Origin: Candidatus Cloacimonetes bacterium HGW-Cloacimonetes-1
GTDB taxonomy: Bacteria; Cloacimonadota; Cloacimonadia; Cloacimonadales; Cloacimonadaceae
Reading direction: 5' to 3'
NCBI GenBank assembly: GCA_002841975.1
Contig: PHBQ01000012.1
Location: 1 to 45,424, forward strand
Length of the DNA stretch: 45,424 nt
The notes under the pieces are model-generated. The model made no database searches. It saw only the letters and a program-made list of their open reading frames with translations, and was not told the DNA's origin. This document shows positions 1 to 3,770 of this stretch, piece after piece. The translations under genes and the position numbers were made by a program. The stretch's first letter is position 1; every line of letters begins with the position of its first letter.

Positions 1-52
1 CTACGCTGTATACGTTGTGCGGACGTTTGACTTCTTTACTCTGTGTCATCAT
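1..52 (-). CDS. 5' end of an unidentified leftward gene (partial)
   Basis: Reading leftward, an AAGGAG ribosome binding site (complement of 57-62) is followed by two consecutive ATG codons at 52-50 and 49-47. From the second ATG the visible protein begins MTQSKEVKRPHNVYSV and runs open to the window edge. The spacing from the binding site is 4 nt to the first ATG and 7 nt to the second, so the second is the likelier start. The gene is divergent from the restriction-modification gene at 392, with the 11-bp repeat array between them. Sixteen residues are too few to assign a family. The start is credible; the function is unknown. Confidence 0.55.
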   Translation of the reverse strand, partial: MMTQSKEVKRPHNVYSV

Positions 53-111
53 GTATCTCCTTATCTTGATTAGTGTCAACTTATTTAGGACGACACATTC
101 TCCCTTACTAC

Positions 112-200
112 CATTACGGACTCATTACGGTGTCATTACGGACTCAATACGGACTTAGTCCGTATTGAGTCCGTAATGAGTCCGTATTGCAACCGTAGTG
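112..200. repeat. mirrored array of eight 11-bp units (long palindrome)
   Basis: Four units based on CATTACGGACT lie head to tail at 112-122, 123-133, 134-144 and 145-155. A single T (156) follows, then four units in the opposite sense based on AGTCCGTATTG at 157-167, 168-178, 179-189 and 190-200, the last one degenerate. The register is exactly 11 bp throughout. The central 133-179 is a perfect inverted repeat with 23-bp arms and a 1-nt spacer. The 11-bp phasing puts every unit on the same face of the helix, as in operator or iteron arrays. It lies between two divergent genes, so a shared operator is possible. The function is inferred only. Confidence 0.85.
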
Positions 201-228
201 CTATTTGGTAAGAAATTTGCTCCTGTCG

Positions 229-391: not shown

Positions 392-3300
392 ATGAGTGTA
401 ATTGCAATCCACCGTTTTCAAAATGAACTTGCTGAACTGAAGCATCGTAGCGGCAAGCCCAATGAATCCTCTATCCGCCTGGCTTTTATCAAGCTGCTGG
501 GCGAATATGCCAAAGCCAAGGACCTGCGCCTGGTGCCGGAAGTCCCTGTGAAGGGCAAGCTGGGCAAAGCCGTAACTCCCGATGGCACGCTCAAGGATAC
601 CCTGGTACTGGATTGGGGATATTGGGAAAGCAAAGACGAATTTGACGATTTGGAAAAGGAAATTGCCAACAAATTTGCCAAAGGCTATCCCGACGATAAC
701 ATCCTCTTTGAAGACAGCATCACCGCTGTACTATATCAAAATGGCAACCGCGTGGCAGAGTGCCAGGTGGATGATACCACCGCCCTGGATAAGCTGCTAA
801 AACAGTTTGTAAGCTTCGAGCGTCCCGAAGTGCACGAATTTCGGGTGGCAATAGAGCTATTCAAAGCCGATGTCCCCAAGGTTACCGCAGCCCTGCGCGA
901 AATGATAGAACAGAATGCAGAGCAAAACAAAGACTACCAAAAAGCTCGTAATAGCTTTCTGGAACTGATGCGGGAGGTGGTGAACCCCAATATCACCCCT
1001 GAAGACATCCGCGAAATGGTAATCCAGCACATACTGACTGCCGATATCTTTAACACTATCTTCGACGAGCCCTACTTTCATCAGGACAACAACATCGCCT
1101 GCGAACTGGAGAAACTGGTTGCCACCTTCTTTACCAAAGATATCCGCAAAAGCTGCCTGGCTGGCATAAAACACTATTATGATACCATCAATGCCCGCGC
1201 TGCTCAGATAGCCGATCACCACGAAAAGCAACGCTTCCTGAAGGTGGTGTATGAAACCTTTTACAAAAGCTACAACCCCAAAAAGGCAGATCGCCTGGGC
1301 GTGGTCTATACCCCCAACGAAATAGTAAACTTTATGATAGACAGCACGGATTACCTGCTGCAAAAACACTTTGGCAAGCTGCTGGAAGATAAAGGCGTGG
1401 AGATATTGGATCCCGCCACCGGCACAGGCACCTTTATCTGCGATATTATAGATCACATCCGCCGGGACAAGTTGGAATATAAATACAAGCACGAATTGCA
1501 CGCCAACGAAGTGGAGATTTTGCCCTATTACATCGCCAATCTGAACATCGAATTTACCTATAAACAAAAGATGGGCAACTATGCCGAATTTGAAAACCTC
1601 TGCTTTGTCGATACTCTGGATAACTATGTGAATATGAACGAAGGTGCCGAAATGGATATCTTCAGCGTTACAGACGAGAACGCCGTACGCATCAAGCGCC
1701 AGAATGAACGCAAGATTTCGGTTATTATCGGCAACCCGCCCTACAACGCCAACCAAATGAACGAAAACGAGAATAACAAAAACCGCGAATACCCCACTAT
1801 CGATAAACGCATCAAGGATACCTATATCAAGCATAGCACCGCTCAAAAGACCAAGGTATATGATATGTATGCAAGGTTCTTAAGATGGGCAAGCGATAGG
1901 ATTGATGAGAACGGTGTAATTGCTTTTGTTTCCAATAGCTCTTTCATCAACAGCAGGACCTATGATGGCTTCAGAAAAGTGGTGAAGGACGAATTTAACT
2001 ACCTGTATATGATAAACCTAAAAGGTAATGCCAGAACCAGTGGAGAGCGCAGAAGGCAGGAAGGTGGCAATGTATTCCATGATCAAATACGTGTAGGGAT
2101 AGCCATTTATTTCCTAATCAAGATTAAAGGTGAGACAGGCTTTCAAGCTTTTTATAATGAAGTTCGAGACTATGCAAAATCCGAAGAGAAACTGGATTAT
2201 ATCGTACAAAACTTATTCCAGGATTTACCCTTTGAACATATCCAGCCCGATAAAGATAACAACTGGATAAATCTGGTGGAAAACGATTGGGATGAGATGA
2301 TTCCCCTGAAAACTAATGACAAAGGGCAAGGCATTTTTGGATTTTCGTCATTAGGAACATCAACAAATCGTGATGAATGGGTTTATGATTTCAATGCTGA
2401 CATATTGTCAGAAAAAACGGCTTTCTTCATTGAAAAGTACAATAATCTACTGTTAACCAATGATATGAATGATACTTCCATTAAGTGGAGTGACACATTA
2501 AAGAGTATTTTTAGATCCAAGAAGAGGCTGTCACACGATTGTAGAAAAACTATCAAGGCAGCATTCAGACCATTTGTTATTCTTAATTATTATTCAGAGA
2601 CTGCCTTAAGTGACAGATTAACACATAATCACACCGTTCTGTTTGATAGGAATCTGATTGCTACTAATAAAGTTATAGCCTTGTCTGGAGTTTCTTCAGC
2701 CAAGCAGTTCACAGTTCTGTCATCAGATATTCTTACAGATTTACATTTCATTGGAGACACTCAGTGCCTTCCTCTTTACCGTTACGACAAAGACGGCGAT
2801 CGCCATGAGAACATCACGGATTGGGCAATGGCAGAATTCCGTACTCATTATGCCGATGCCGCCATTTGCAAAGAAGATATCTTTCACTATGTCTATGCCG
2901 TGTTACACGATCCTGCCTACCGCAAGAAGTATGAGCTGAACCTAAAGCGCAGCTTTCCCCGCATTCCCTATTATGAAGGCTTTGGGAAATGGGCAGCCTG
3001 GGGCAGGGAATTGATGGCACTGCACATCGGTTTTGACGCTGTGGACCGGTATCCCTTGCACCGTATGGACTTGGAGCTGGAGACAGTCGGTAGCCCCAAA
3101 GCCAAGCTAAAAGCGGACAAAGATCACGGCTCTATCGTGCTGGATGAAATCACCAGCCTTAGCGGTGTACCGTCTATCGCCTGGGATTATAAGCTGGGCA
3201 ACCGCAGTGCACTGGAATGGGTGCTGGACCAATACAAGGAAAAGAAACCCAAAGACCCCACCATCGCCAAGCTGTTTAATACTTACCGCTTTGCTGATTA

Positions 3301-3394
3301 CAAAGAGGTGGTGATCGATCTTTTGATGCGGGTGTGTACCGTGAGCGTAAAAACAATGGCGATTGTGGAGCAGATGGAGAGTACAAGCCAGTAA
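392..3394 (+). CDS. single-chain restriction-modification enzyme: nuclease, N6-adenine methylase and recognition domain
   Basis: A 1000-residue protein expected to methylate adenine in a specific site and cleave unmodified DNA. Near the N-terminus D64 (PDG) followed by E79-S-K81 fits a PD-(D/E)XK nuclease core. Methylase motif I, DPATGTGTF, starts at D340, and catalytic motif IV, NPPY, is at 448-451. The C-terminal half resembles the specificity part of type ISP enzymes. No helicase motifs occur between the nuclease and methylase, and at 1000 residues it is much shorter than helicase-containing ISP enzymes of about 1600 residues. It is therefore best called type IIG-like or a helicase-less ISP relative. 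The start at 392 has a GAGGGA site upstream. No separate methylase or specificity gene is adjacent. Codons in roughly 1855-2765 differ sharply from both ends of the gene, suggesting an exchanged recognition module. Confidence 0.88.
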   Translation: MSVIAIHRFQNELAELKHRSGKPNESSIRLAFIKLLGEYAKAKDLRLVPEVPVKGKLGKAVTPDGTLKDTLVLDWGYWESKDEFDDLEKEIANKFAKGYPDDNILFEDSITAVLYQNGNRVAECQVDDTTALDKLLKQFVSFERPEVHEFRVAIELFKADVPKVTAALREMIEQNAEQNKDYQKARNSFLELMREVVNPNITPEDIREMVIQHILTADIFNTIFDEPYFHQDNNIACELEKLVATFFTKDIRKSCLAGIKHYYDTINARAAQIADHHEKQRFLKVVYETFYKSYNPKKADRLGVVYTPNEIVNFMIDSTDYLLQKHFGKLLEDKGVEILDPATGTGTFICDIIDHIRRDKLEYKYKHELHANEVEILPYYIANLNIEFTYKQKMGNYAEFENLCFVDTLDNYVNMNEGAEMDIFSVTDENAVRIKRQNERKISVIIGNPPYNANQMNENENNKNREYPTIDKRIKDTYIKHSTAQKTKVYDMYARFLRWASDRIDENGVIAFVSNSSFINSRTYDGFRKVVKDEFNYLYMINLKGNARTSGERRRQEGGNVFHDQIRVGIAIYFLIKIKGETGFQAFYNEVRDYAKSEEKLDYIVQNLFQDLPFEHIQPDKDNNWINLVENDWDEMIPLKTNDKGQGIFGFSSLGTSTNRDEWVYDFNADILSEKTAFFIEKYNNLLLTNDMNDTSIKWSDTLKSIFRSKKRLSHDCRKTIKAAFRPFVILNYYSETALSDRLTHNHTVLFDRNLIATNKVIALSGVSSAKQFTVLSSDILTDLHFIGDTQCLPLYRYDKDGDRHENITDWAMAEFRTHYADAAICKEDIFHYVYAVLHDPAYRKKYELNLKRSFPRIPYYEGFGKWAAWGRELMALHIGFDAVDRYPLHRMDLELETVGSPKAKLKADKDHGSIVLDEITSLSGVPSIAWDYKLGNRSALEWVLDQYKEKKPKDPTIAKLFNTYRFADYKEVVIDLLMRVCTVSVKTMAIVEQMESTSQ

Positions 3395-3514: not shown

Positions 3515-3674
3515 TGCCGGGCTCAGGGTGTTGACAAAGTCCCGAGGATTGCACCTAAGTCCGCAGGACGATATTGTATAACACGGTACGCAAGTGCCGG
3601 GCTCAGGGTGTTGACAAAGTCCCGGGGATTGCACCTAAGTCCGCAGGACGATATTGTATAACACGGTACGCAAG
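3515..3674. repeat. 80-bp tandem repeat, two units
   Basis: Units at 3515-3594 and 3595-3674 differ at one position (A at 3545, G at 3625). A short fragment of a third unit (TGCCGTGATCAGG) begins at 3675. A related sequence (GCTGTTGACAAAGTCC) recurs at about 3882-3897 after the second 99-bp repeat, and more distantly at 34110. Confidence 0.9.
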
Positions 3675-3770
3675 TGCCGTGATCAGGATCTCCAGTTCAG
3701 ATCTGAGTCCGGCAGGACGGCACAAAATCCAGCATACATACATGATTACATGGAATGACAATCCAAGTTT

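Follow-up and report, generated by a model that had tools for sequence, protein, structure and literature searches.

A dispersed mirror array of 11-bp units in Cloacimonadota genomes and a small candidate partner protein

Among described systems, one of the two nearest functional analogies to the array reported here, beside parC with ParR, is the RAYT-REPIN pair (PMC3116915, PMC8266576), with which it shares dispersed intergenic palindromes in tens of copies and genome-specific variants, one associated gene per family, and insertion sequences that target the repeat, as is known for REPs (PMC1525189). The array differs from REPs and REPINs in that it consists of duplex 11-mers without covariation between its arms and has no GTAG/CGTC foot, and from RAYT (TnpA-REP) systems in that its candidate partner protein is not a Y1/HUH enzyme. 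The operators of OmpR/PhoB-type response regulators are tandem 11-bp direct repeats, with one site per helical turn. Our array has the same register and spacing, but it is a mirror arrangement of up to eight units that occurs in convergent as well as divergent intergenic regions, and the candidate protein carries no response-regulator domain. In the case of plasmid R1, parC, which is bound by ParR, also uses 11-bp repeats (PMC9426499), and the likeness extends to tandem short repeats upstream of a partner operon, a small binding protein and a system-specific specificity. Here, too, tandem repeats stand upstream of the gene of a candidate binding protein; however, the arrays are chromosomal, dispersed and mirror-symmetric, and neither Pfam nor a fold match gave a ribbon-helix-helix of the ParR type in that protein.

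The window, by which we mean the whole stretch of DNA analysed (45,424 nucleotides), is one entire contig (C85) of a 2.78-Mb draft genome. Read directly, positions 112-200 consist of four 11-bp units, one central T and then four units in reverse, the register being kept exactly, and repeat-finding tools recovered the same array independently, which bears out the eight units in mirror order described by the first-pass annotation. The left arm (112..155, plus strand; repeat family D1 and a tandem repeat) is made of four direct units, CATTACGGACT at 112, CATTACGGTGT at 123, CATTACGGACT at 134 and CAATACGGACT at 145; the T at 156 is the dyad centre; and the right arm (157..200, minus strand, also found by the repeat tools) consists of the reversed units AGTCCGTATTG at 157, AGTCCGTAATG at 168, AGTCCGTATTG at 179 and CAACCGTAGTG at 190. 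Since the innermost two units of each arm (134-155 and 157-178) are fully complementary, the perfect inverted repeat at the centre, which the annotation had correctly seen and had sized at 23 bp, measures 45 bp (22 + 1 + 22; 134..178, within repeat I1). The two outer unit pairs are imperfect, the outer units differing between the arms, and a looser complementarity extends over 98-214 (imperfect arms 98-155 and 157-214). The pyrimidine-rich left foot of the element, CTCCCTTACTA (98..111), in whose place other copies share CCCTTACTTG, falls outside the adjoining insertion-sequence end, and the right foot (201..214) lies in the imperfect arms and has a CTAATAGGG-like sequence common to the copies. 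The element as a whole is about 93 bp long, with consensus feet CCCTTA.../...TAAGGG. The array is far above chance, both in its predicted fold (-64 kcal/mol; z = -10 against dinucleotide shuffles) and in the counts of its core, for which a reversed control pattern gave zero matches in the genomes counted, the relatives G008, G013 and G031 among them.

The core palindrome occurs 11 times in its own genome, always intergenic and at unrelated places, and 80, 76 and 11 times in G008, G013 and G031 of the same GTDB family; dispersed copies number about 10 to 80 per array-bearing genome and are found in intergenic regions of every kind. Searching with a looser unit pattern recovered arrays from 14 of the 50 genomes of the family and from 0 of 75 other genomes of the phylum; a still looser one, CAWTRC at 11-bp steps, recovered them from 17 of the 50. 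Array presence splits genera (6 of 13 genomes in one genus, 4 of 9 in another), and congeners of array-bearing genomes often have no array at all. The exact core palindrome had no match in GTDB r220 contigs, and the looser unit pattern retrieved relatives from database contigs, the named ones being Candidatus Cloacimonadota. Proteobacterial matches to the looser pattern appear to be simple tandem repeats in which one 11-bp unit recurs unchanged, and we do not count them as relatives because chance predicts such matches when the pattern is searched in so much DNA.

The scattered copies turn over between species. Their neighbours mostly differ from one species to the next, and the few orthologous neighbours found are about what is expected from long shared intergenic regions. 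The orientation of flanking genes resembles that at other intergenic regions, with divergent, tandem and convergent pairs all represented, and by eye the sites listed along the G009 chromosome show no obvious pattern of array orientation. Flanking direct repeats were not in excess at any boundary, hence no target-site duplication was seen, and when empty sites were sought in congeners, the intergenic DNA proved too diverged for an insertion point to be placed. A regulon drawn from the genes next to arrays was considered and set aside, their functions being diverse.

Within genomes, the bases of the unit (CAWTRC followed by five variable bases) are nearly fixed except at the third position, which is A or T and sometimes C, and in the linker, of which there are only several versions. 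At these sites of variation one arm changes without regard to the other, and the observed pairing is no different from that of mismatched copies. In 22 distinct G013 copies, 87.2% of cells are paired as against 89.5% in column shuffles, with all 500 of 500 shuffles at or above the observed value and covariation below every shuffle. Because the arms vary independently and do not conserve pairing, it appears to be the 11-bp duplex unit that is kept rather than a hairpin, and the strong fold is a by-product of the mirror layout; the long hairpin that the first-pass annotation had entertained is not borne out as a conserved structure. The simplest reading of this pattern is a duplex-DNA site read by a protein, and the conservation of units singly supports the cooperative binding that one unit per helical turn had suggested.

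Each array-bearing genome has its own architecture and dialect. The four + four arrangement of the window is also found in G018, with CATTACGGTAG/TAC units, whereas arrays are three + three in G013 and three + two in G008 and G031; the units are CATTGCCCACC in G025 and CATTGCTTACC in G009, a complete genome (2,246,820-bp single contig) in which the units of loci L351-L380 have changed to this form. At the centre of a G009 array the two units usually differ in type, with CATTACGGATG facing CATTGCTAATG, and CATTACGGACT units persist in some copies, as though the exchange went unit by unit.

Clustering of all array-adjacent genes yielded one small gene (149-173 aa) that lies beside arrays in five genomes, and the member in the genome of the window, at C36:13821-14288 on the minus strand of another contig, encodes a protein of 155 aa. 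The family reaches 25 members per genome, is present in 49 of the 50 genomes of this Cloacimonadota family and in 8 elsewhere in the phylum, and matches nothing in Pfam, NCBIfam, PHROG or PDB. With the 155-aa protein as query, a close homologue (at least 134 bits) is found in 17 of 17 array-bearing genomes, whereas the best match in any of the 33 array-less genomes, where there is one, is a more distant paralogue of at most 133 bits, a separation that rests on a cut-off chosen post hoc [Fisher p = 1e-13, if the genomes are taken as independent]. The gap at this cut-off is tiny, with array-bearing G026, whose units are deviant, at 134 bits and array-less G015 at 133; the next weakest array-bearing genome stands at 163 bits. 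An AlphaFold model built from four sequences (pLDDT 77, pTM 0.63; an earlier one with three sequences was poor, pLDDT 57) predicts an N-terminal three-stranded sheet, at lower confidence, and a confident helical part. A fold search with this model matched no known fold, and no DNA-binding domain was recognisable by profile search or fold match. A member of the family is also found on a contig labelled viral (L479 3001-3447, IMGVR_UViG_3300022663_000368), where its neighbours, identified by eye, are a Mu-like transposase and a repressor of the S24 type; its upstream DNA is similar to a stretch that adjoins an array in the window's own genome (contig C124, L042).

Arrays stand at the 5' side of this gene in most of the genomes concerned. 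An inverted 11-bp array lies upstream of the close homologue in G000, G004, G008, G009, G013, G026, G028, G031, G044, G046 and G048, and G025 has a deviant one there. In G018 and G012 another gene intervenes, and over 1 kb separates the upstream array from the homologue; in G021 and G036 contig ends hide the region. When gene-upstream arrays were compared by their linkers with the dispersed arrays of 11 genomes, the genome's own ranked first in 8 of 8 cases, the comparison covering the eight of the 17 orthologues with enough readable units. The array abuts or overlaps the -35 box of the gene in many genomes, which suggests that the protein probably represses itself: in seven members a TTGACA-like -35 begins between -6 and +1 relative to the end of the array, and a TATxxT-like box follows after 16-17 bp. 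Such a promoter occurs at the array edge in 9 of 40 members, against 1.7 expected, and at 13 of 266 edges of dispersed copies, a rarity that fits self-repression at the protein's own gene; in the window's own genome, no clear promoter is discernible at the edge of the C36 array.

The association extends to the paralogues. The strongest upstream repeat lag is 11 bp in 39 of 68 family members as against 8 of 346 control genes, these being other genes from the same loci (p = 3e-28), and 27 of the 68 have no clear 11-bp array upstream. Paralogue units differ, being ACCTTAGTATA in G001, GATTCTCTAAT in G007, GTAACACTTCC in G009 and GTATCCAGTCG in G018, and the more alike two proteins are in sequence, the more alike their units tend to be (Mantel rho 0.36, with 0 of 2000 permutations as high); protein and unit diverge together. 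Co-occurrence, position, dialect and co-diversification thus make for a strong link between gene and array, and give the protein-binding idea of the first-pass annotation a candidate protein.

To account for these observations, we propose that the array is probably a dispersed and genome-specific operator array whose 11-bp unit binds an autorepressing protein of about 150 aa encoded elsewhere in the genome. Each unit would be the binding site for one subunit, and with sites one helical turn apart the subunits would line up on one face of the DNA, from both ends toward the dyad. At the protein's own gene, bound subunits would cover the -35 box and repress the promoter. The dispersed copies would be bound by the same protein, forming the same complex as at its own gene, and are most likely a population of repeats that has been copied around the genome, following a logic comparable to that of REPINs and their RAYT. 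Such dispersed complexes may serve the host, in chromosome folding or silencing, or may be a selfish population. Under this proposal, uncharacterised small proteins that number as many as 25 in one genome would acquire a role that can be tested, as each gene predicts its own DNA site, and the protein-to-site pairs (about 40 here) would be a natural collection from which to work out a new DNA recognition code. The proposal also offers a non-transposase view on the origin and persistence of dispersed bacterial palindromes.

A bolder claim, which we hold to be rather unlikely on present data, is that the protein family and its arrays constitute a new self-spreading pair, with the DUF6266 genes of Bacteroidota as a second branch. 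The protein, alone or with a host enzyme, would cause the copying of 11-bp duplex arrays to new intergenic sites, and each genome would thereby come to hold an array population in its own dialect. The array departs in a defining feature from each known family that could be tested, the partner protein belongs to no described family, and we found no description of the protein-array pair in the open-licence literature. The analysis turned up no enzyme by which the copies might be spread, and the looser label of an autoregulated DNA-binding protein with its operators would fit as well, if binding is real and the copies are ordinary regulatory sites.

As for the Bacteroidota, proteins of Prolixibacteraceae related to DUF6266 (PF19781) have inverted 11-bp arrays upstream of their genes. 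Three such loci in Prolixibacteraceae bacterium UBA10471 (L473, L476 and L478) each combine a DUF6266-type gene with a large inverted 11-bp array of its own unit, which suggests that the protein-array pair exists in this phylum too. These candidate relatives share a similar short N-terminal motif with the Cloacimonadota proteins (hhalign E 0.0014, probability 18%); the DUF6266 proteins are longer (about 207 aa) and have another C-terminal part. One array-associated Prolixibacteraceae protein passes the DUF6266 cut-off (27.1 against 23.4 bits); the Cloacimonadota proteins give no hit to PF19781 at the Pfam gathering score. Our search found no paper on DUF6266 function. In Chitinophaga sp. E66 (CP079103; L223, L230, L240, L282 and L310), about a dozen loci carry long direct arrays of CAATACGGTTA-type units, with at most about 13 units in each and no mirror half, and a search of this genome with a DUF6266-like query gave no match.

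Could the arrays be classical REPs or REPINs, that is, hairpin repeats that a RAYT-type Y1 (HUH) transposase spreads in single-stranded form? The tens of dispersed extragenic copies (11-80, intergenic), their palindromic form and the lack of target-site duplication are those of REPs, and Y1 genes are present in 37 of the 50 family genomes, with an array near one in two of them. However, the pairing of the arms is not kept, whereas REPs preserve their stem by compensatory change, the element of about 93 bp is without the characteristic foot, and the Y1 genes (PF01797) do not track arrays: none was found in G031, which has 11 arrays, and many reside in array-less genomes. Moreover, those near arrays are flanked by a different repeat, GTCCC..GGGAC, and we judge this explanation improbable. 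The two IS200-like Y1 genes concerned (L143 1390-2170 and L142 1-876) and their GTCCC..GGGAC palindromes are a probable REP/RAYT pair of their own, and each of the two genomes has an 11-bp array nearby.

A structural RNA or terminator, whose transcript would fold into a long hairpin that ends transcription or protects mRNA, draws on the very stable predicted fold, yet the arms vary without compensation, there is no Rfam match or terminator-like site, the arrays lie between genes of every relative orientation, and the direct arrays of Chitinophaga do without a mirror half. Its probability is accordingly quite low, and as the conserved function it is refuted by the G013 copies, which pair less than any shuffle. 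We give still less credence to a local operator or boundary for the Type ISP restriction gene (392-3394) and the divergent gene, as proposed in the first-pass annotation from the position of the array between divergent ORFs. That annotation had itself named scattering at unrelated loci as the result that would tell against it, and such scattering is what we find, the other copies in the same genome lying beside unrelated genes, while the divergent gene turns out to be the beginning of an insertion sequence, which also adjoins other copies. The gene-pair-specific element is thereby refuted; a side effect on the restriction gene is possible. Equally little probability attaches to a MITE or a part of this insertion sequence, although three of its four ends in the genome abut an array: most arrays have no such neighbour, one end (at C126) has no array, no target-site duplication surrounds the arrays, and the insertion is on either side of the palindrome (C85 and C32 versus C77).

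In the window, the array is flanked by an insertion-sequence end, putatively IS3-like from its end and reading frame (1..97, minus strand), which adjoins the array without belonging to it. From its start at 50, the ORF of this end continues past the edge of the contig, and the same 97 bp recur at C32, C77 and C126, the DNA past position 97 differing. A terminal-inverted-repeat comparison, which covered the one insertion sequence seen, showed an end that differs from the array. Because insertion occurs on either side of the palindrome, it looks as if the insertion sequence targets the array. The end, TGTGTCGTCCTAAATAAGTTGACAC, was noted at window 1-97, L001 1-97, L013 and L014, and a similar adjacency was seen once in G008 (L101). 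Downstream of the restriction gene, the window also contains an 80-bp tandem duplication (3515-3687) and further dispersed repeats (TGTCGCCCCTCCAGGGCTC) around 3418, 3774 and 4450.
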